A DNA stretch of 55,997 nucleotides from Archaeoglobus sp. JdFR-27. GTDB taxonomy: Archaea; Halobacteriota; Archaeoglobi; Archaeoglobales; Archaeoglobaceae. How positions within the stretch are numbered: position 1 is the first letter of the stretch; the number at the start of each line of letters is the position of its first letter. A model generated the notes under the pieces. That model ran no database searches. It saw only the letters and a list, made by a program, of their open reading frames with translations, and was not told the DNA's origin. The DNA is taken from the NCBI GenBank assembly GCA_002011235.1, contig MTMO01000039.1, positions 1 through 55,997 of the forward strand, given 5' to 3'. The position numbers and the translations under genes were made by a program. Shown piece after piece: positions 27,146 to 44,280 of the stretch.

Positions 27146-27260
27146 GGTAGAACATAAGCAAGTAAAATGTAAGTGAATCATCTCAGAAGAACAGTCTTAG
27201 GACAATCTTAGAACGTCAGACTCCAAATTTTTTGGCTTCTTTACTCTGCTAAATTGATAA

Positions 27261-27290
27261 CGAACTTTAACGAACTTTAACGAACTTTAA
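27261..27290. repeat. 10-bp tandem repeat, three copies
   Basis: CGAACTTTAA occurs three times exactly in the 197-base gap between rpl10e and the next gene, with partial copies at each edge. Nothing else is recognisable in this gap except a T-rich element shortly before the following ATG. Confidence 0.8.
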
Positions 27291-27342
27291 CCAAATCAAA
27301 ACGGTTTTAAAACTTTTTTTCAAAATTGTATGGGGTATTGAG

Positions 27343-32623: not shown

Positions 32624-33532
32624 TCAAGAATACTCTTCAAGAATATCCTTCAGATATATCTTGTGCTGCCCGAGCTTTCCTTCATAGTTCCCGCTTGATA
32701 TTCTTACAACCCCATCAACCTTGCTCGCAACCTCCATGCAAACGTACATCGCCCTCTTAAGCACATCCAGGTTTATTCCATTTATGACTATCTCTGGAAT
32801 CGATTTCACACCATCCGGGACCATTGAATCGGGGATCTTGTTCTTGAGGGTTGGGCAGAAGTAATGGTTAGTTGTCGGGCCGATTTCAGGATACTTCGTT
32901 TCAGGTTTCGAGCCAGCCGAGCAAATTCCAAATGATGTTATAACTCCATCTATCTCCTTTAATGCCTCGACGGCAAGCTCTCCAGCTTCCAAGGCAGCCT
33001 CCTCGCTCTCACAGAAGTACCAGATGTTTCCACCTGCTATTCCTTCAGCGTATCCAATGTATCTCTCGATTATGAACTCTCCAAACATTATCGGAACCCT
33101 TATCATTTTCCTTCCCCAAAGCTCCTCTTCCCATTCATATCCATCACCACATCTTCCAACGTTTAATTCGGCGTCGAACTTTGTGTCGCTATCGGTTGCG
33201 TTGAAGACCCTTGTTGTTGGCACGACAAGCACACCCTGTCTCAACCTCTTGCTCATTTCTCTCATCAGAACGTCAAGAAACTTTTTGCTCTTCTGAACCC
33301 AGACCTGAGCTATCGCTCCATGTCTTCCATCGGGTGTCTCCTCAGGAGAGAGCCATCGATCTATCCCTCCTTCCGACTCCCCAAAAACAGTCGATGGAAG
33401 GGCTGTAGAGCCGTAGGCGGCGTTTTTAAGCAACCACTTATGCTTTGCGGTTATGATAAATCTCGAATAGATTCCATCAAAAGCCTCGCAGTATGTATCA
33501 TCTACCGGTATTCCATTCAGTTCAAGTCCCAT
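32624..33532 (-). CDS. ftr: Formylmethanofuran:tetrahydromethanopterin formyltransferase
   Basis: 302 residues from the ATG at 33532 (MGLELNGIPVDDTYCEAFDG), full length for Ftr; a TTG five codons upstream is less likely. Family blocks GGNIWYFCESEEAA and GPTTNHYFCPTLK are present, and the protein is acidic. It moves the formyl group between methanofuran and H4MPT in the C1 (reductive or oxidative acetyl-CoA) pathway used by Archaeoglobales and methanogens. A TTTTATCTTTTA box about 25 bases upstream suggests a leaderless start. Confidence 0.96.
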   Translation of the reverse strand: MGLELNGIPVDDTYCEAFDGIYSRFIITAKHKWLLKNAAYGSTALPSTVFGESEGGIDRWLSPEETPDGRHGAIAQVWVQKSKKFLDVLMREMSKRLRQGVLVVPTTRVFNATDSDTKFDAELNVGRCGDGYEWEEELWGRKMIRVPIMFGEFIIERYIGYAEGIAGGNIWYFCESEEAALEAGELAVEALKEIDGVITSFGICSAGSKPETKYPEIGPTTNHYFCPTLKNKIPDSMVPDGVKSIPEIVINGINLDVLKRAMYVCMEVASKVDGVVRISSGNYEGKLGQHKIYLKDILEEYS

Positions 33533-33632
33533 GTAACTGAAAGGCAAATAAAAGATAAAAGAGTTTCTGGTTAGAAGTGGAGGTAAACGAATATTAAGTT
33601 AGATATAAACTTGAAAAGTTAAAGATTAGTTT

Positions 33633-34911: not shown

Positions 34912-36039
34912 TTACTCATATCTCAGAGCCTCTATCGGCTCGAGTTTACTTGCCTTGAAAGCTGGATAGAAACCACTTATAACCGCTGTTATCAACCCAA
35001 AGAAAACGCCCTGAAGGATTGAGTAGAGGGTTGCCATGCTGAACAAATGTTTGGCTGACTGAAGGATAGCCAGTTCGATGAAGTAACCTCCGAAAATGCT
35101 AAGAAAACCACCGATAACGCTCCCTATCACCCCAAGAATCAAAGCCTCATATAGAAAGATTCTAAGAATTGTGTGTCTGCTTGCTCCTACAGCCCTCATA
35201 ACTCCAATCTCCTTTGTTCTTTCTAGGGTTGACATCAACATTATGTTCAGAATGCTAACACCAGCTACAAGCAATGAAACTCCGGCTATTGCGAGAAGGA
35301 ATAGATTTATCTGATTAAAAGCCTCAGTGATCCTCTCTAAGATAGATCTCAATTCTAAAACTCGAACTTTTTTGTCTCTGGAGTTTATTGACTTCTCTAC
35401 CAGATCTTTAAATTTCTCGATATCTTGGAGACTCTCGACCTTGGCGATTATAGCGGAATAATCTTCCTTGTTAAACAGCTCTGTAAAATCCTTTTCAGAT
35501 ATTATTATTGCGTTGTTTGGATTTATATCAAATCTGGCCCCCTCCTCTTTCAAAATTCCTGCTACTGTGAATTCTTTTTCTTTGATCGTAACCTTATTTC
35601 CGACCCTAATCTTCATTCTTTCGGCAAGATTACTTCCAATGACACATGAGCCTGAAAGCCTGTTACTCCCCTTCTCAACTTCAAAAAGTTCAGTAATTGC
35701 AGCTCTATCCAAACTGTAAATTGTGGTAAAAGTTTTCTTGTTTTTGAGGTAAACAAGCGAACCCTCGTTTTTCAGAGGGATGACAGACTTCAGATATGGC
35801 ATTTTCTCGATTTTAGAGACGATAGTCTTATCTATACTCGAGTATCCTCCTGAGAAGGATGGGGTTATGATAACTTCATTGGCAATATCCTCAAACCTTT
35901 CGAGAACGGTTTTCTTCAAACCCTCACCAAATATCCCGATAGAAGAAATGGCCATAACACCTATCACTATTCCGATGATAGCTAAGATCGTTCTTACCTT
36001 CGTTCTCATCAAGTTTCTTTTGGCCAGCTCGAAGTACAT
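34912..36039 (-). CDS. MacB-like ABC transporter permease (FtsX family)
   Basis: 375 residues. One N-terminal helix (RTILAIIGIVIGVMAISSIG) is followed by a ~220-residue extracytoplasmic MacB core domain, then three C-terminal helices, ending in FYPAFKASKLEPIEALRYE, the typical MacB/LolC terminus. Start ATG 36039 has GAGGCGA upstream; a TTG at 36045 overlapping the ATPase stop is the alternative. It couples ATP hydrolysis to movement in the outer domain (mechanotransmission) rather than classical transport. Confidence 0.9.
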   Translation of the reverse strand: MYFELAKRNLMRTKVRTILAIIGIVIGVMAISSIGIFGEGLKKTVLERFEDIANEVIITPSFSGGYSSIDKTIVSKIEKMPYLKSVIPLKNEGSLVYLKNKKTFTTIYSLDRAAITELFEVEKGSNRLSGSCVIGSNLAERMKIRVGNKVTIKEKEFTVAGILKEEGARFDINPNNAIIISEKDFTELFNKEDYSAIIAKVESLQDIEKFKDLVEKSINSRDKKVRVLELRSILERITEAFNQINLFLLAIAGVSLLVAGVSILNIMLMSTLERTKEIGVMRAVGASRHTILRIFLYEALILGVIGSVIGGFLSIFGGYFIELAILQSAKHLFSMATLYSILQGVFFGLITAVISGFYPAFKASKLEPIEALRYE

Positions 36040-36041
36040 CT

Positions 36042-36725
36042 TCAATCGCCTCGTTTGTCTAAGATTTTACCGTCTCTTATCTTCACAATGCGCTGTGCGA
36101 ACTCAGAAACAGCAGGGTCATGTGTCACTACGATTACTGTGACACCCTCTTTGTTAAGATTCGTGAGAATCTCCATGATGAGTTCTCCACTTTTCGTGTC
36201 AAGATTTCCAGTTGGTTCATCGCATAACAAAATGGTAGGATTGTTTGCTAAGGCTCTTGCTATGGCAACCCTTTGCTGCTGACCCCCGCTAAGCTCAGTG
36301 GGTTTTCTATTAATTTCTCTTTCCAGTCCTACTTTTTCAAGCAACTCGTTCGCTCTTTTCTCTCTCTCGTTCCTATTCAAACCACGGAAAATCATTGGCA
36401 ATTCAACGTTTTCGAGGGCAGTTAGGGTAGGAATCAAATTATATTGCTGAAAAATGAAACCTATCGTATCTCTTCTGAGCCTGGTGAGCTCGTCATCATT
36501 TAACTTTGAGGTATCATTTCCCGCAATCAACACTCTCCCCTTAGTTGGTTTGTCAAGGCAACCAATCATGTTGAGAAGCGTTGACTTTCCGCTCCCTGAA
36601 GGACCCATTATCGCGATGAATTCTCCCTCTTCTACCTTCAAGGATACACCATTCAATGCAATTACTTTCTGCACCCCTAAAGTGTAGATCTTATAGACTT
36701 CTTGAAGCTCCACGACCGCGTGCAT
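36042..36725 (-). CDS. MacB/LolD-type ABC ATPase
   Basis: 227 residues. Walker A GPSGSGKST, Q-loop FIFQQYNLIPTLTALENVEL, signature LSGGQQQRVAIARAL, Walker B ILLCDEPTGNLD and the H-loop VTHD are all intact, with the GNLD variation typical of the LolD/MacB/FtsE group. It lies between the secreted-domain gene upstream and the permease downstream on the same strand. Confidence 0.95.
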   Translation of the reverse strand: MHAVVELQEVYKIYTLGVQKVIALNGVSLKVEEGEFIAIMGPSGSGKSTLLNMIGCLDKPTKGRVLIAGNDTSKLNDDELTRLRRDTIGFIFQQYNLIPTLTALENVELPMIFRGLNRNEREKRANELLEKVGLEREINRKPTELSGGQQQRVAIARALANNPTILLCDEPTGNLDTKSGELIMEILTNLNKEGVTVIVVTHDPAVSEFAQRIVKIRDGKILDKRGD

Positions 36726-36741
36726 CTTATCGCTTGTTAGT

Positions 36742-38100
36742 TTATTTTCTAGACTTTACGAGTGCAACAACAATTATAGCGGCAACGATCACTGCAGCTA
36801 TTCCTATGTAAAGCATAGTATTCCTAGGACTCTTTTCAAAGCTTTTAACAGGAACACTGAACTCTTTGCTTATTTTGTTAACACTTCCTAATTCGTTTGT
36901 CCAGGAAACAATTATCGTACCTTTTTTGGTAACAAGAGGGAGAGAGAAGTCAAAACTGAAGAAGTCTCCCGACTCGAGTTCACCAACGAAGAAGTTCTTG
37001 GTAATATTCTTTGCTATAACCTCTATCACAACATTTCTTGCCTTCGATCTCCCTCCATTGCTCAGATCTCCGGTAATCTTTACCTCTTCAAGTGTCTTCT
37101 TTACATCCAGATTGCTTATTCCCAGAATTTCTTGATCTGTTGCTGTAAATTCGACACTTCTTTGTATTACGTAATCGTTCCCCATCTCATCTTTATAGCT
37201 CACTCTGATTGTTATCTCATTCTTTCCGCTCTTCTCTGGTGAAAAGAGAAAACTTGTAGATGTAGAGGTGAAGGGATCGAGGTAGGGAATTTCCCGTCGG
37301 TTTTCGGAGAACGAAATTCTGTCACCATTAACTTCAACTATGACTCCGTAAACTCTGTCATTCCTCAGATTTGCAAGGGAAACGCTAAGAGATGAGACAT
37401 CGTTTACTGGAAGAACTGAAAATGATAGGTTGTAGGTGAGAAAAACTCCCTTGCTGCTCTCGTATTCTACCTCAACATTTTGAATTGTCTCATGGTAATT
37501 TCTCCCGTTATAGAATGAAATTTTGAATGAAAGCGGTTTATCCTCAGTAGGATAGAATTTAAACGTTCCTGTGGCCTCCTGAAGGGTGTTAAAGTAGAAT
37601 ATGGAAGGTTCTGAGTTGAATAACGGCTCAACCCTTACCTTCTCAAAGTTAATCCTGCTAGCTAAGGAGAATTCAACCTCGTTTACCTCATTAAGAATCA
37701 GTCTTGTTTTTTTGAGAATTAATAATGGTTTCACATCCACAACTTCCACATTAAAAATGTGCTTTTTGCTATCGTTTTTCGTGTTTATAAGTACCTCAAC
37801 TCCGTATAAACCTGGATTTGTTGCCTTTATTGTGAAGGGGAATTCATAGCTTGTCCCTTTAGCGATTACGCCGATTTCTGTGATAAATGATGGCGTTATC
37901 TTAACTCCTGTTGTCTTGAAGGAAATACTTCTCACATCCTCTTCTTTCTGAGATGTTAGAATCAATTTTCCGTCTGCGACATCTCCAGGTAGAAGTACTG
38001 CGGGATTAATCTCTATTTTTGACACCTCTATGGCTTTTGAAGGTATTACAAATAGCAGCGAGATTATCAGGAGTGTAGCCCATATTTGCATGCTTTTCAT
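36742..38100 (-). CDS. Extracytoplasmic immunoglobulin-like protein with C-terminal anchor, partner of the MacB-like exporter
   Basis: 452 residues. A signal peptide (IWATLLIISLLFVIPSKA) leads to a series of beta-rich, immunoglobulin-like repeats of the COG1361/CARDB kind (for example ISNLDVKKTLEEVKITGD), then one membrane helix (MLYIGIAAVIVAAIIVVALV) and a basic KSRK end. The topology puts nearly all of it outside the cell, anchored at the C-terminus. It is first in the three-gene operon and likely contacts the permease's outer domain, as MacA does in bacteria but without homology. Confidence 0.82.
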   Translation of the reverse strand: MKSMQIWATLLIISLLFVIPSKAIEVSKIEINPAVLLPGDVADGKLILTSQKEEDVRSISFKTTGVKITPSFITEIGVIAKGTSYEFPFTIKATNPGLYGVEVLINTKNDSKKHIFNVEVVDVKPLLILKKTRLILNEVNEVEFSLASRINFEKVRVEPLFNSEPSIFYFNTLQEATGTFKFYPTEDKPLSFKISFYNGRNYHETIQNVEVEYESSKGVFLTYNLSFSVLPVNDVSSLSVSLANLRNDRVYGVIVEVNGDRISFSENRREIPYLDPFTSTSTSFLFSPEKSGKNEITIRVSYKDEMGNDYVIQRSVEFTATDQEILGISNLDVKKTLEEVKITGDLSNGGRSKARNVVIEVIAKNITKNFFVGELESGDFFSFDFSLPLVTKKGTIIVSWTNELGSVNKISKEFSVPVKSFEKSPRNTMLYIGIAAVIVAAIIVVALVKSRK

Positions 38101-38203: not shown

Positions 38204-39526
38204 ATGGAAAGTGATGAGGTGCATGAGATCTACGACTTTGTTCAAATGAATCTTTTCTTTGGAGATGAGACTCTGAGCGTTGGAGAGAAGAGATATAATC
38301 CTTTAGTGCTTTTTACAATCATGACATCTTTCCTTAATGGGAAAGAGCTCATTTTTGGCGAGTATGGGAGCGGGAAAACAACTTCAGCTGAGAGGATAAC
38401 GAGCTTAACAAAAACACTCCCGCTGGAGTTCATTCAGGCTACAACAATCCACGGCCACCCTGAGCAGACGGAAGAAAAGATGAAAGCAACCCTCGATCTT
38501 GCAGCTTTGGAGAAGGAGGGAAAAGAAATCATTAGATGGAAACTTCTACCCTTTTCACCAGCCGTAATAATCGATGAGATAAATCGTCTTCCCGTTGGTA
38601 AGCAGAGCATGATTCTGAATGAAGTTGACAGGAACATCTGGAGCTATAGAGGTGAGACCCTAATTTTTGAGGAGGGAAAGTCATTTTTTGGGACAATCAA
38701 CTATCAGGATGCCGGAACAACACTTCTGATTCCCCCACTCCTCGATAGATTCGACATCGCTGTTGAAACGACAATGCTTCACCCTGTGAGGAAGAGACTC
38801 GTGAGACGGGGGGTGGATGACAGCATCCTCCGTGATTCAAAGCTCGCAAAGGAAATGATCGAATACATAATGGAGATGAACGTTTCTGAGAAATCCGGTG
38901 AGGTGGTTAGGTACGTGGCGGAAGTTTCAGTATCTTTCAGAGAGGTAATTGAGGAGAGAGCCAAGAAAAATGGCTTTAATCTGAACCTGCCTGGAAAAAA
39001 GGAAATTGAAGAAATAAACAAAGAGATAGAATCCCTCCCTGTTTCGTTTGATCTTGAACTCCTTATGGACTATCTCGGCCAGGAGGTTTACTGTCATCTG
39101 GGAATGCACAAAGACTTCTCTAAATGCAGCGGTTGCCATTACGCAAACTACATCTGTTCAGATCTTTACTCCATCTCCAACAGGGCTGAGAGAAGTATTC
39201 TGTTATATTCGAAGGCACTTGCGTGGTGGAATGGGGATGAAGAGGCAGATGTGCTCCATTTGACCAGTGTTTTACCCTTTGCCCTCTGGCACAGAACGGA
39301 GATTTCCGACAGGAAGCGATCTGAAATTAGGGATGTTGAAAAAGACGTTAGCGATGAGTTTTTTGCAGTTCAGGATAGTGTAAGGAAGGTGAAGAAGAGG
39401 TGGGAAGAGCATAGAAGTCTTCAGATCGAAGCTTACAACCTCCTCAAAAAGGGCGAAGAGAAAGAGGTAGAGAACATTGCAAACCTGACTGGACATCCCT
39501 TCTTCAAGAGTCTTTTGAGGGGGTGA
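38204..39526 (+). CDS. MoxR-type AAA+ ATPase with a C-terminal cysteine cluster
   Basis: 440 residues. Walker A is GEYGSGKTT (about 52-60), Walker B VIIDEINRLP, and sensor/arginine-finger elements FFGTINYQDAG and LLDRFDIAVE follow, as in MoxR/RavA/CbbQ proteins. Unusual for the family, the C-terminal part has four cysteines at 297, 308, 311 and 318 (C-x10-C-x2-C-x6-C), fit for an iron-sulfur cluster or zinc. MoxR proteins remodel partners bound by VWA proteins, and a VWA gene follows 3 bases downstream. The 103-base gap upstream is a divergent promoter shared with the exporter operon. Confidence 0.85.
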   Translation: MESDEVHEIYDFVQMNLFFGDETLSVGEKRYNPLVLFTIMTSFLNGKELIFGEYGSGKTTSAERITSLTKTLPLEFIQATTIHGHPEQTEEKMKATLDLAALEKEGKEIIRWKLLPFSPAVIIDEINRLPVGKQSMILNEVDRNIWSYRGETLIFEEGKSFFGTINYQDAGTTLLIPPLLDRFDIAVETTMLHPVRKRLVRRGVDDSILRDSKLAKEMIEYIMEMNVSEKSGEVVRYVAEVSVSFREVIEERAKKNGFNLNLPGKKEIEEINKEIESLPVSFDLELLMDYLGQEVYCHLGMHKDFSKCSGCHYANYICSDLYSISNRAERSILLYSKALAWWNGDEEADVLHLTSVLPFALWHRTEISDRKRSEIRDVEKDVSDEFFAVQDSVRKVKKRWEEHRSLQIEAYNLLKKGEEKEVENIANLTGHPFFKSLLRG

Positions 39527-39529
39527 GTT

Positions 39530-40999
39530 TTGGAGGATGAAATCCAAGCTGGAGGAGCAATTCCCAACATGGAGGCATTAAAAGAACTGTTTGAGAAGGT
39601 AAGGAAGAAACTTTACTATCCTCCAGTTGAGAAGTTTGAGGTCTCGGAGGGAGAGAGCAGATTCGAGTTCGGAAGGAGGTTAAAGCTAATCATTGGAAAG
39701 GAAGAGGTCAAAGTGTTCAGCAGAAAAGCCCTTGAAGGGTTGTTTGCGTTGAATCTTAACCATTGGGCAAAGCATCCCTACGATCTCAAGACGATTCTGC
39801 TTGAAGAATATTGGCTTAGGGATTTCGAGAAGAGGTCTGAGATAAGAGATATTTTCGATGATCTCGTTTCCACTCTGGACCTTATATTTAACCGGGGAAT
39901 TGATGAGGTAATCGACTATTATCATCAGGCTCCAATCAGAGGGAAACATGATGTGCTGATAAGGGCGTACCTTCAGAGGGTTAGTGGTGAAATGCTGGTT
40001 GATGTGAACGAAGACATCGAGAGAAGAGTAGATGAATTGATGAAGATAGATTTCCTCGATTTGAGAAAAATGAGATTGAGGATGAATCTAATCAGATTTG
40101 GCAAGATCATAGAAGATTTAATTGAGGGTTTTCAACCTCAGATCAGCGTTGAAGATTTCTCTGAAGAGGATCTCAGAGAGGCTTTAAAAGAGGCTGCTTG
40201 GGAACTCGATGAGAGGGAATTCGAAGATCTATGCAGGTTCATAGGAAAGAAAACAAGCACGGTAATTAAAAAGCCAAGAAAAGTCTGGTATATGGAGAAG
40301 GCAAGAAATTATTCCATTTATATCCAGCCCCGATCGAGGACGGGATCGCTTTATCCCTCGGAAATCAGGGAGTTCGAGTTTGATGACAAAATCGAAGCAT
40401 TCAATCCTGTAGATAGTTATGGAAAGCTGATTCCCGGAATAGCAAAAAAGTACGTTTACGAGGACTTTGAAGGGATGGTAGGAGGCATATCAGATGCTGT
40501 CATCGTGATTGACTCTTCGGGAAGCATGATGGATCCAGAGAGGGGCGTCTCCTATGCTGTGCTCGGAGCTTTTGTGATAGCAAGAAACTATCTCGAGAAC
40601 GGAGCAAGAGTTGGAGTTGTTAACTTTTCAAATGAAAATCTTAGCCTACTTCCCACGAGAGGGGACGTTGTATTTGATCATCTTATTCTTTATCAGGGAG
40701 GTGGAACGCATCTCGATGTAGATGAGTTGAAAATATATTTAGATAGGCTGAGAACTCAACCAGATTTGATTATGATAACGGATGGTGGAATTGAGAACAT
40801 CGATGAGGTTTCAGAGTTTATTTCAAAACTTAAGTCAATGACAGTCATATGGATAAAAAAGCATGTGGAGGGGTTAAAAGAGTTCTCAGAGCGAGTAGAA
40901 AGACTGAAAGCAATGAGAGGGGTTGAGATTTTTGAGGTTGAGGATGAGAAAGATATACCATCTATAGCCGTGAGGAGATTCGGTGATTTTTATGCTTGA
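39530..40999 (+). CDS. VWA-domain protein (MoxR partner)
   Basis: 489 residues. The C-terminal von Willebrand A domain has a perfect MIDAS: VIDSSGSMMD (D328, S330, S332), plus ITDGGIENIDE. The N-terminal ~230 residues are helical and include LNLNHWAKHPYDLKT, whose His-x3-His recalls the peptidase-like part of DUF2201/VWA proteins; a full zinc site is not evident. The TTG start has GGGGGTGA just upstream; an ATG at 39569 is the alternative. The MoxR-VWA pair typically assembles or activates a metalloenzyme or complex. Confidence 0.85.
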   Translation: MEDEIQAGGAIPNMEALKELFEKVRKKLYYPPVEKFEVSEGESRFEFGRRLKLIIGKEEVKVFSRKALEGLFALNLNHWAKHPYDLKTILLEEYWLRDFEKRSEIRDIFDDLVSTLDLIFNRGIDEVIDYYHQAPIRGKHDVLIRAYLQRVSGEMLVDVNEDIERRVDELMKIDFLDLRKMRLRMNLIRFGKIIEDLIEGFQPQISVEDFSEEDLREALKEAAWELDEREFEDLCRFIGKKTSTVIKKPRKVWYMEKARNYSIYIQPRSRTGSLYPSEIREFEFDDKIEAFNPVDSYGKLIPGIAKKYVYEDFEGMVGGISDAVIVIDSSGSMMDPERGVSYAVLGAFVIARNYLENGARVGVVNFSNENLSLLPTRGDVVFDHLILYQGGGTHLDVDELKIYLDRLRTQPDLIMITDGGIENIDEVSEFISKLKSMTVIWIKKHVEGLKEFSERVERLKAMRGVEIFEVEDEKDIPSIAVRRFGDFYA

Positions 41000-41567
41000 T
41001 GTGAGGAAGATCATCGACAGGTATCCGGATGTTCTTGAGGTTGGAAAGGAATCCAAGAAAGCTAAAAGGAAAGCTAAAAGGATCAAGCAGAAAAAGGCAG
41101 AGTTCAAAGAGCTCGGTGAGATACTGGCAATCTATCTCCAGAAGGAAACTTCAGATGCCTTCAGACTGAACTCACATCTGGCGTTTGATTACAGTAGAAA
41201 GGTTCAGCATAGTTTCGGTTTAAGTTTGGATGAGATTGAAGAGATGATTAGTCTGATCCTCCCGGAGAAGATCATTGAATTTGAAGGGGAAATAAGGGTT
41301 AAGCTTTGCGACGACCTTTTCGATAGCTATCTGGGGTATCTCTTCTCTGGATTATACCACGATGTTATAAAAGATAGGGATTCCATTATCTTTGGTCTGC
41401 GAAAGGCTTTGCCTAAGTTTCCCCATCTCTGCTATCGCTTGAGTAATAAGTGGGGTTTTGGATATAAGCATGGTATGGGAGAGCTTATTATCTCGGGCCA
41501 TCCTGGAGGTTACGTTGGCCATGAAATGAGTGGGGAGAAGATAGAGGTTATTCAGTTCGAGCGATAG
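40992..41567 (+). CDS. GXGXG beta-helix protein A, truncated by a frameshift
   Basis: 191 residues as read (ATG 40992; GTG 40983 also possible, overlapping the VWA gene). A basic N-terminus with a duplicated KAKRKAKR segment precedes a helical domain containing SGLYHDVIKD and one or two rungs of the GXGXG beta-helix (GMGELIISGHPGGYVGHEMSG). It is a tandem paralog of the protein at 41760. The helix continues in another frame just downstream (41549-41715), so the intact protein would be about 240 residues. Confidence 0.7.
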   Translation: MLDVRKIIDRYPDVLEVGKESKKAKRKAKRIKQKKAEFKELGEILAIYLQKETSDAFRLNSHLAFDYSRKVQHSFGLSLDEIEEMISLILPEKIIEFEGEIRVKLCDDLFDSYLGYLFSGLYHDVIKDRDSIIFGLRKALPKFPHLCYRLSNKWGFGYKHGMGELIISGHPGGYVGHEMSGEKIEVIQFER

Positions 41568-41715
41568 AGTGGGATATAAAATGAAGGGGGGAGAGGAATG
41601 GACTGGGATAAACATGGTTGGTGGGGAAATAAGAGTGAGGAAGAGCATAAATCCTAAAAAGAGGTTTGGAGGGAGTATATCAGTTTGGAAAGGCGGTTGG
41701 GTTGAAATTAATTGA
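41549..41715 (+). pseudogene. Displaced 3' end of GXGXG protein A
   Basis: Frame-shifted continuation: SSSDRVGYKMKGGEEWTGIN followed by MVGGEIRVRK and ending SISVWKGGWVEIN-stop. VGYKMKGGE repeats the rung VGHEMSGE of the upstream frame, which identifies it as the same beta-helix. The break is a one-base change near 41547-41553. It could be mutation, sequencing error or programmed frameshift; no classic slippery site is apparent. Confidence 0.65.
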
Positions 41716-41759
41716 AATTAGTTGAAATTAGTTGAAATTGAAATTAGTTGAAAAATTGA
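41701..41759. repeat. 10-bp tandem repeat between the two GXGXG genes
   Basis: GTTGAAATTA and close variants occur in tandem about five times, filling the gap right up to the ATG at 41760 and overlapping the end of the broken frame. There is no RBS in it, so initiation of the second gene must rely on something else, such as leaderless transcription or reinitiation. Confidence 0.75.
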
Positions 41760-42470
41760 ATGGATACGTTGGATATGAAAATAATTGATAGGTTGTTGGA
41801 TAGGATTAACATTCCAGAACCTGAGTGTGGGAGAAATTATGAGGAAGCGGTCAATTCAAACAGACTTGAGGACGCTGTTTTAGTCTTCCTTGATTGGGCA
41901 AAAGACAAGTACGGGTGGAGAAAGGAAGTCTGGGAGGAAGCATTTAAGCTTGGAAGGGAGCTAGCAAGTGAATTTTGCATTTCTATTGAGGAGATCTCCA
42001 CAATCCAAAAGTATAGATATGGTGGAATATTTGGCTTTTTCATTTCTGGTCTTATTCACGATCTCATTGGGAGTAAAAGGCTTCGTTTGAGATTGAGTTC
42101 AATGTCTGGGTTGGGGTATAAATTCAAGTCGGGAGAACTGGAAATTTTTGGTGATAAGTTGATCTACCTTGGATTAAAAATGAAGGGGGGAAGGATAATC
42201 CTACATGGAAATGCAGGAAATTATGTGGGTAGGGAGATGGAAGGGGGAGAGCTGATAATAGAAGGAAATGTCAGAAACTGGGCTGGATATGGTATGAAAG
42301 GTGGGAGGTTGGTGATAAAAGGAAATGCTGGGAATGTTTTGGGTGGAAAGATGGAGGATGGAGAGATTGTCGTGTACGGAAGTGCAGGCGAATGGCTCGG
42401 AGAGGATGCGAGAGGTGGAAAGATTGAGGTTAGAGGTAGGGATGTGAAAAATCAAAGTAGTCGATCGTAG
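41760..42470 (+). CDS. GXGXG beta-helix protein B (FwdC/GltS-alpha-like domain)
   Basis: 236 residues. An N-terminal helical domain (1-110) shares FISGLIHDLIG with protein A's FSGLYHDVI. The C-terminal half has about five rungs with the GXGXG pattern (GNAGNYVGREMEGGELIIEG, GNVRNWAGYGMKGGRLVIKG), as in subunit C of formylmethanofuran dehydrogenase and the alpha subunit of glutamate synthase. It has no catalytic residues of its own, and in known enzymes the domain is structural. It ends the MoxR-VWA cassette. Confidence 0.82.
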   Translation: MDTLDMKIIDRLLDRINIPEPECGRNYEEAVNSNRLEDAVLVFLDWAKDKYGWRKEVWEEAFKLGRELASEFCISIEEISTIQKYRYGGIFGFFISGLIHDLIGSKRLRLRLSSMSGLGYKFKSGELEIFGDKLIYLGLKMKGGRIILHGNAGNYVGREMEGGELIIEGNVRNWAGYGMKGGRLVIKGNAGNVLGGKMEDGEIVVYGSAGEWLGEDARGGKIEVRGRDVKNQSSRS

Positions 42471-42644
42471 AGTATTTGTGTGGTTTTCTGATTGAGTTTG
42501 ACTTTTCTACAAGTTTATTATTGGTTTTTTGGTTTTTATTTAGGTTTTTCACTGCACAAATTTCAACGTTTGATCTTAACCTTCCATTAAAAAGTCTCAT
42601 CACCAATCGAAAACATTCTAATAATTTGGAGCAATATACTTATC

Positions 42645-43304
42645 ATGAAACATAGAATTCTTTCAAGACCGAGCTACAGCCTGTTGGAACTTGAACTTGA
42701 GAGTGGAGAAGAAGTGCAGGCTGAGACAGGGGCTATGGTTTACATGAAGAATGTTGAACTGAAAACAGAAATGAAGGGTGGACTCTTCGGGGGTTTGAAA
42801 AGATCGCTCCTTGGAGGCGAGTCCTTCTTCATAAACAGATTTGTCTCTAAAGGTAGAGGACTTCTCGGATTGGCTCCGAGGTATCAGGGCGATATAGTAC
42901 ATATCCCAATGGAAGGGAGAATGTATGCACAAAGCGGTGCGTTTCTTGCTTCCTCTCCTGAAATAAACGTAGATACAAAATGGGGTGGAACAAGAACGTT
43001 CTTTGCTGGGGAAGGGCTTTTCCTTCTGAAACTCGATGGAAGCGGAGATCTATGGCTTTCATCTTTTGGCGGAATTGAAGAAGTGGAGGTTGAAGATTAC
43101 TTAAAGGTTGACACCGGCCATATCGTTGCCTTTGAAGAGGGTTTAGACTTTAAAATCTCCAGAGCAGGTGGATTGAAAGCAACCCTTTTGAGTGGAGAAG
43201 GACTGGTGGCAGAATTCAGTGGGAGTGGGAAGGTCTGGATTCAGACAAGATCTATTGGTGAATATCTTGGCTGGCTCGCCTCCCTCCTTCCAAAGAAGGA
43301 TTGA
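42645..43304 (+). CDS. AIM24/TIGR00266 family protein
   Basis: 219 residues, all beta, with the pattern of the TIGR00266/AIM24 family: AETGAMVYMKNVELKTEM, a GGLFGGLKRSLLGGESFF glycine-rich loop, PRYQGDIVHIPM and GEGLFLLKLDGSGDLW. The fold resembles a double-stranded beta-helix trimer; the function in prokaryotes is unknown. The ~170 bases before it hold a T-rich stretch after the GXGXG genes, so it likely has its own promoter. Confidence 0.88.
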   Translation: MKHRILSRPSYSLLELELESGEEVQAETGAMVYMKNVELKTEMKGGLFGGLKRSLLGGESFFINRFVSKGRGLLGLAPRYQGDIVHIPMEGRMYAQSGAFLASSPEINVDTKWGGTRTFFAGEGLFLLKLDGSGDLWLSSFGGIEEVEVEDYLKVDTGHIVAFEEGLDFKISRAGGLKATLLSGEGLVAEFSGSGKVWIQTRSIGEYLGWLASLLPKKD

Positions 43305-43363: not shown

Positions 43364-43810
43364 TCACTCAAATCCAAGTTCACGGAGTATCTCTACTGCC
43401 TTCTGAAGATCTTCGGCTTTAACGAGGATATGATCGGTAGAATAGGATGAAAACACGAGGATTGGTATATTCTTCTCGGCCAAAGCTCTTGAAATCCTTG
43501 CAATAAAGCCTACAGTATCAAATGGCAAAAAAGTTTCGAAAGTTATAAGTCTAAAACCTCTTTCAACCTCTAAACCTTTAGGAAGCTTTTCCTCCTCAGT
43601 AACAATGGTTATCTCCCTACCATCGTTTATCAATGCAAAGAATGGTGAGTTTAGATAATCAAGATAATCAAGATAATCAAGATATTCAAGAGACTCATGA
43701 TACTCAAGATAATCAAGATCGTCAAAATTTCTTGCTCTGGCAACAGCATAAGTGGCTTTGTTAACCTTAAGTTTTACTTTACCTTCCCACTTCTCGCCTT
43801 TCTCACTCAT
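43364..43810 (-). CDS. ACT-domain protein with an expanded repeat insert
   Basis: 148 residues. Residues 10-75 and 85-148 form two ACT-like units (FFALINDGREITIVTEEEKL; PFDTVGFIARISRALAEKNI; STDHILVKAEDLQKAVEIL), as in small amino-acid-sensing ACT proteins. Between them in the first unit an insert reads YLEYHESLEYLDYLDYLDYL; it comes from a 9-base DNA repeat (AGATAATCA on the plus strand, 43653-43690). It overlaps the upstream PUA gene by four bases (ATGA). The ligand is unknown. Confidence 0.82.
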   Translation of the reverse strand: MSEKGEKWEGKVKLKVNKATYAVARARNFDDLDYLEYHESLEYLDYLDYLDYLNSPFFALINDGREITIVTEEEKLPKGLEVERGFRLITFETFLPFDTVGFIARISRALAEKNIPILVFSSYSTDHILVKAEDLQKAVEILRELGFE

Positions 43811-44280
43811 AAAATCCTCCTGTTCTTTGGTACGAAATTGATGATTTTATTTCCTTTTATCCTTCCACATCCAAGGAAGTAGGAACCGGACTTGAGGATC
43901 ACGTATCTACTGTTTTTAACCTCTAAATTATCCCTTTCTAAATCCCTTTCTAAATCCCTTTCTAAATCCTCACCCATCATCCATCTTTCAGCCTCATACC
44001 TGCTGATTTCCACAACGTTCTTCTTTGCCATTGGCCCTACAAGAAAGGAACCCTCAATGGAGAGCCTCAATCCATCCCCCTCAATTGTGCCAAAGTAAAT
44101 TCCTTGGCTAACTCTCCTAAACTTTAACTCAAGCCCGCAATTAGTATAAGCATAGATCCTTCTCTTACCCATTTCCTTGAAGTTTAGATCTATATCTATC
44201 TCTTCAACCCCAAACTGCTCCCTTAGCATGTTTTTTATATGGTTCCTCAGTTCATCCTTATCGCTTTTCATATCCTCCAT
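43807..44280 (-). CDS. PUA-like RNA-binding protein
   Basis: 157 residues. The C-terminal half (SRYVILKSGSYFLGCGRIKG and the closing strand NFVPKNRRIL) has PUA-like features. In many organisms such a domain is attached to NOL1/NOP2 rRNA methyltransferases, and here the methyltransferase gene lies directly upstream, six bases away. A LERDLERDLERD insert is encoded by a 12-base tandem repeat at 43932-43969. It probably binds the methyltransferase's RNA substrate. Confidence 0.7.
   Translation of the reverse strand: MEDMKSDKDELRNHIKNMLREQFGVEEIDIDLNFKEMGKRRIYAYTNCGLELKFRRVSQGIYFGTIEGDGLRLSIEGSFLVGPMAKKNVVEISRYEAERWMMGEDLERDLERDLERDNLEVKNSRYVILKSGSYFLGCGRIKGNKIINFVPKNRRIL

Follow-up and report, generated by a model that had tools for sequence, protein, structure and literature searches.

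Pairs of a MoxR-family AAA+ ATPase and a VWA protein carry out metal insertion into, or remodeling of, enzymes that are among the hardest to make in heterologous hosts. Several such systems have been described. NorQD inserts iron by means of a finger that the VWA protein places in the pore of MoxR (PMC13036017), RavA-ViaA has a modulating effect on fumarate reductase and complex I (PMC10585395, PMC3893208), and in the MoxR-vWA ternary conflict systems the pair is joined by a third component that is VMAP, iSTAND, FtsH, or a beta-propeller (PMC7159879). Here, we analyze a plus-strand cassette at positions 38204–42470 of a 55,997-bp stretch of Archaeoglobus sp. JdFR-27 (contig MTMO01000039.1, hereafter the window, from a genome of 2.36 Mb in 67 contigs), in which the genes for a MoxR ATPase and a VWA protein are followed by two genes of the GXGXG beta-helix type, GX1 and GX2. 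MoxR, VWA, and GX are one evolutionary unit because the genes are linked, because they co-occur when unlinked, and because the MoxR and VWA trees are congruent. The three-protein machine that they would form is apparently undescribed and new within the MoxR-VWA kind. No such MoxR-VWA-GXGXG system was found in the literature, Pfam, NCBIfam, and PADLOC as searched, nor was a description found in the literature on MoxR with GXGXG, Archaeoglobus, formylmethanofuran dehydrogenase subunit, or Methanothrix/Methanosaeta; the term "undescribed" used in the initial annotation of this DNA holds for the literature and family libraries searched.

We refer to the window-type cassette as A-type, to a second form found in Desulfobacterota as B-type, and to that of f21 methanogens as M-type. 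Orthologues of the window MoxR, 50–85% identical to it, occur in Archaeoglobaceae (the window's genus g1 except G005, and also g5 and g6) and in bacteria of the Thermodesulfovibrionales, Desulfobacteraceae, and Syntrophaceae; in Nitrospirota, MoxR was present in 3/246 sampled genomes. With a deeper MoxR profile, the B-type (like L047) was recovered from about 35 of 395 sampled Desulfobacterota and the M-type from the archaeal family f21, which looks like Methanotrichaceae from the acetyl-CoA synthetase adjoining the cassette. GXGXG and VWA genes lay directly beside MoxR in nearly every neighborhood examined, ordered MoxR-VWA-GX in the A-type and MoxR-GX-VWA in the B- and M-types; the flanks differed, and no conserved fourth gene was present near the cassette in these neighborhoods. 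The cassette is real and conserved in Archaeoglobaceae, Methanotrichaceae-like methanogens, Thermodesulfovibrionales, and Desulfobacterota. Two genomes carry both A-type and B-type cassettes (G395, L047 and L034; G398, L138 and L141), so the two types are not mutually exclusive.

Co-occurrence was scored with MoxR and VWA profiles. Among 393 archaeal genomes, 26 had both genes, two had VWA only (one of these genomes is 68% complete), none had MoxR only, and 365 had neither (Fisher p 1e-38, ignoring phylogeny). In 80 selected Desulfobacterota, VWA was found in 37/37 MoxR-positive vs 0/43 MoxR-negative genomes, the latter picked from the 395-genome sample and not random. The two genes were linked in 21 of the 26 archaea and in 36 of the 37 MoxR-positive selected Desulfobacterota. 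Where they were unlinked, the set was still complete: the VWA-GX pair lies on another contig in g6 Archaeoglobaceae (L148–L150) and likewise in the bacterium G680 (L151), and in G396 MoxR-GX is at L035 with VWA at L140. The MoxR and VWA trees were congruent in the main groups, split cases included, and over 20 A-type pairs the distances of the two proteins were correlated with a Mantel r of 0.94. This linkage is far beyond chance. That the genes are chance neighbors is refuted by linkage and co-occurrence kept in more than 60 genomes of four groups. Since the linkage recurs elsewhere, across four phylogenetic groups, and co-occurrence is near-perfect even for unlinked genes, there is strong support for the initial proposal that MoxR, VWA, and GXGXG make up a functional system.

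The MoxR protein (440 amino acids; 38204–39526, plus strand) matches Pfam AAA_5, AAA, and AAA_lid_2 near the cut-off. Its ATPase core is complete, with intact Walker A and Walker B motifs, sensor 1 and sensor 2, the arginine finger, and the lid, as in the AAA+ member of MoxR-VWA chaperone pairs, and its closest PDB relative by sequence is 2r44. The Walker B Asp is replaced by Asn in 8 of 59 MoxR sequences, f21 methanogen rows of the alignment among them. Two other features stood out in the alignment. The motif HPEQTEEK (residues 85–92; 38456–38479, plus strand), in the helix-2 insert region between Walker A and Walker B, is present in 58/59 distinct MoxR sequences. A four-cysteine site (Cys4; C297-x10-C308-x2-C311-H-Y-x5-C318; 39092–39157, plus strand) is present in all 59/59, with residue spacing that varies among types, and by alignment to 2r44 it lies immediately N-terminal of the sensor-2 motif (S325/R327). 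Upstream of MoxR, A. veneficus-like and g6 genomes carry a radical-SAM-like gene (MKYVYGPVPSRRLG...; L021, L025, L026, L057).

The VWA gene (39530–40999, plus strand) starts 3 bases after MoxR and encodes 489 amino acids, comprising an N-terminal domain (~residues 1–262) and a C-terminal VWA domain. VWA_2 matched 32/33 family members. The MIDAS (metal ion-dependent adhesion site) is complete: the DxSxS residues D328, S330, and S332 (40511–40525, plus strand), together with T393 and D418, are invariant in alignments A5 and A7. MoxR is linked to a VWA partner with a MIDAS, as in the known chaperone pairs. No PDB sequence was matched significantly by the VWA profile. The AlphaFold2 model (pLDDT, the predicted confidence score, 82) had as its top PDB fold match NorD of the NorQD complex (9qhg_G). 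The ratio of nonsynonymous to synonymous substitution rates (dN/dS), given here and below as comparisons with the relative G004 (that with G003 was saturated), was 0.07 for VWA.

All three subtypes share a homologous VWA N-terminal domain (hhalign probability 94–99.6). In several A-type bacteria it carries HHELNHW on a helix preceded by three strands. Together with weak M48 and DUF2201 matches, and with a gene reading as Lon downstream of the B-type cassette in just five loci (L123, L125, L127, L131, and L133), this could point to an ATP-regulated protease in which MoxR opens a zincin (HExxH) formed by the VWA N-terminal domain. We consider such a protease improbable. The HExxH-like helix is intact in some A-type bacteria only, and its Glu is lost in other A-type bacteria (HHQLNH), in B-types (DHGxTH, DHAVTH), in f21 methanogens (DHLIVH), and in Archaeoglobaceae (HALNH, NLNH). 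Because a catalytic site would be kept, and the HExxH of a metallopeptidase is not conserved here, we do not call VWA a peptidase.

GX2 (236 amino acids; 41760–42470, plus strand) is an intact helical and GXGXG beta-helix protein that matches PF01493 with an E-value of 3.1e-8. Its AlphaFold2 model (pLDDT 89) has six helices (residues 3–99) followed by the beta-helix (residues 107–224), and its fold matches in the PDB are FwdC (5t5i, 8rja) and FhcC (6s6y), with weak E-values. A SufBD-like beta-helix was dropped as a candidate, matching only at an E-value of 5. GX1 (194 amino acids; 40983–41567, plus strand) overlaps the VWA gene by 17 bases and is shortened by a frameshift. DNA alignment with L024 of G004, a close relative whose MoxR and VWA are 94% and 90% identical to the window proteins, showed that GX1 has a 2-base deletion near 41553 and lacks another 81 and 3 bases without a further change of frame; the sequence after the stop could still be aligned to ~41713. 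Lesions relative to close relatives were marked at 41553 and 41595. GX1 is full-length (255–272 amino acids) in the relatives G003, G004, G001, G002, G009, and G020, so that in the window either GX1 has recently become a pseudogene or the break is an error of the assembly. The initial annotation was right about MoxR, a VWA protein with a perfect MIDAS, and paralogous GXGXG genes with a helical domain, but it missed that GX1 is not intact; its "gaps of 3 bases or overlaps" describe the first two junctions and not the 192 bases between GX1 and GX2. In the tree, GX1 and GX2 form two separate Archaeoglobaceae clades; they are true paralogues that go back to an old duplication within this family. 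GX2 is nearer than GX1 to the bacterial cassette GX, and dN/dS was 0.14 for GX2 and 0.10 for the intact part of GX1.

GX shares the beta-helix with FwdC/FhcC and the GXGXG domain of glutamate synthase (PF01493, TIGR03122), FwdC being the nearest solved structure, and the FwdC profile TIGR03122 matches 36/36 GX members. This FwdC-like profile is what would favor a maturation system for the known GXGXG enzymes, formylmethanofuran dehydrogenase (Fwd) or glutamate synthase, yet we regard that role as very improbable. The window GX2 scores 100.2 bits against a curated cut-off of 130.65, and GX differs from FwdC by its extra N-terminal helical domain. No FwdC above the curated cut-off was present in any bacterial host tested (other Fwd subunits were not searched); in most of these hosts, the sole match below the cut-off was the cassette's own GX. 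Conversely, cassette-minus Archaeoglobaceae have a normal FwdC. A link to Fwd was rejected because the bacterial hosts lack FwdC above the cut-off, which also refutes the tie to formylmethanofuran dehydrogenase suggested by the initial annotation.

Alternatively, and close to what the initial annotation proposed, GX might itself be the client, a beta-helix protein that MoxR-VWA assembles or activates and that then takes a scaffold or spacer role in some complex. Almost always, GX accompanies MoxR and VWA in the genome; the same fold acts as a structural spacer within Fwd, Fhc, and glutamate synthase; and GX has been duplicated, with one copy relocated in G001 and G002, as clients may be. We nevertheless consider this unlikely, as no catalytic scaffold partner is conserved nearby and the helical N-terminal domain is common to A- and B-types, which suits a component of the machine. 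GX fits the role of third subunit or adaptor better than that of substrate because it is inherited fixedly with MoxR and VWA, without a catalytic partner gene.

The cassette shares features with each of the described systems. Like NorQ-NorD, it combines a MoxR AAA+ ATPase with a VWA partner, here one whose best fold match is NorD; unlike NorQ-NorD, it includes a GXGXG subunit, its MoxR bears an invariant Cys4 site, and it lacks the client encoded alongside that is seen for NorQD, CbbQO, and CoxDE. RavA-ViaA also pairs MoxR with VWA, has no fixed client operon, and acts on anaerobic respiratory complexes, but it has no GXGXG protein, and the operon does not contain LdcI, the other partner of RavA, as a conserved third gene. 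With the ternary conflict systems the cassette shares the logic of three constant components, MoxR, vWA, and one third protein, and it might be a defense system of that kind (PMC7159879). This is quite improbable in our view. The third protein is of the GXGXG type, not VMAP, iSTAND, FtsH, or a beta-propeller; there was no PADLOC match, and no variable effector domains were seen. The taxonomic spread also differs, with hosts that are anaerobes and do not belong to the multicellular taxa emphasized in PMC7159879, and the genes are under strong purifying selection.

We favor, at somewhat better than even odds, a MoxR-VWA remodeling chaperone of the NorQD/CbbQO/RavA-ViaA type with an obligate third GXGXG subunit, serving an anaerobic redox enzyme. 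MoxR would assemble into a hexamer and VWA would dock on the ring, with a conserved segment that immediately precedes the VWA domain, GSLYPxE...GK.IPGIAKKY, possibly acting as a finger in the pore, as in NorQD (PMC13036017). GX could bind VWA or the client as a scaffold or adaptor, and ATP hydrolysis would twist the client open so that it can be assembled, repaired, or given a cofactor. The Cys4 site, as an Fe-S or Zn site, might let the ATPase sense the redox or metal state. The client is expected to be an anaerobic redox enzyme encoded elsewhere in the genome. A more specific version, which we put forward tentatively and think on balance unlikely, is a redox-gated assembly machine with a MoxR ring bearing an Fe-S Cys4 sensor, a VWA lever, and an FwdC-like adaptor, in which the A-type matures or repairs Dsr/Qmo and the sister forms serve other redox enzymes in Desulfobacterota and acetoclastic methanogens.

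For the A-type, the best candidate for a likely client is a Dsr/Qmo component of dissimilatory sulfite/sulfate reduction. The A-type is nearly confined to DsrA-bearing sulfite/sulfate reducers: DsrA was found in 9/10 A-type bacteria vs 39/100 cassette-minus bacteria (31/80 Nitrospirota and 8/20 Desulfobacterota; Fisher p 0.002, ignoring phylogeny) and in 10/11 A-type Archaeoglobaceae, and G006, G015, G018, and G027 have neither DsrA nor the cassette. In G680 (L121, 1130–10030), MoxR is divergent from and 139 bp away from qmoA, and qmoBC and dsrAB(D) come next; qmo and dsrB/D were named by reading the sequence, with a family match for dsrA only. This MoxR at the qmo-dsr locus is far from its own VWA-GX pair, and it is the sole such adjacency. 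The DsrA association and the G680 adjacency are a lead, not proof, and several observations weigh against a Dsr/Qmo client. Some Archaeoglobaceae without the cassette (G005, g4) have DsrA too, the contrast in archaea alone was not significant (p 0.13), and B-type hosts were not enriched for DsrA (5/18 vs 8/20, p 0.51). The p-values ignore phylogeny, the split of the counts into A and B was made post hoc, and the counts leave out the f21 methanogens. No consistently linked client gene was present in the neighborhoods examined, and the client is a guess. DsrA as a universal correlate was rejected, as it holds for the A-type only. CODH/ACS (carbon monoxide dehydrogenase/acetyl-CoA synthase) was also rejected as a common client: CdhC is present in most cassette hosts and many non-hosts, and it is absent from G397, G398, G399, G778, and G680. 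If the chaperone reading is true, the cassette would supply an assembly factor so far missing for key anaerobic enzymes of sulfate reducers and apparently acetoclastic methanogens, and bacterial proteins that resemble FwdC may be chaperone parts. The three genes could be tested as a kit for making anaerobic enzymes in other hosts.

The cassette is flanked upstream by a divergent CARDB/ABC-transporter group (34912–38100), beyond which lies an Ftr gene identified by family match (32624–33547). No tRNA or Rfam family was found within the window. Downstream of GX2 is an unrelated AIM24/TIGR00266 gene. It adjoins GX2 in the genus (window 41760–43304, L018, L024, L144, and L145), even where GX2 has left the cassette (G001 and G002). 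Perfect or near-perfect tandem repeats of 9–16 bases occur at 41701–41753, 43653–43719, 43930–43969, and 27258–27291, some of them within genes (those for ACT and PUA proteins at 43.6–43.9 kb), and these short repeats suggest slippage in the window's genome.

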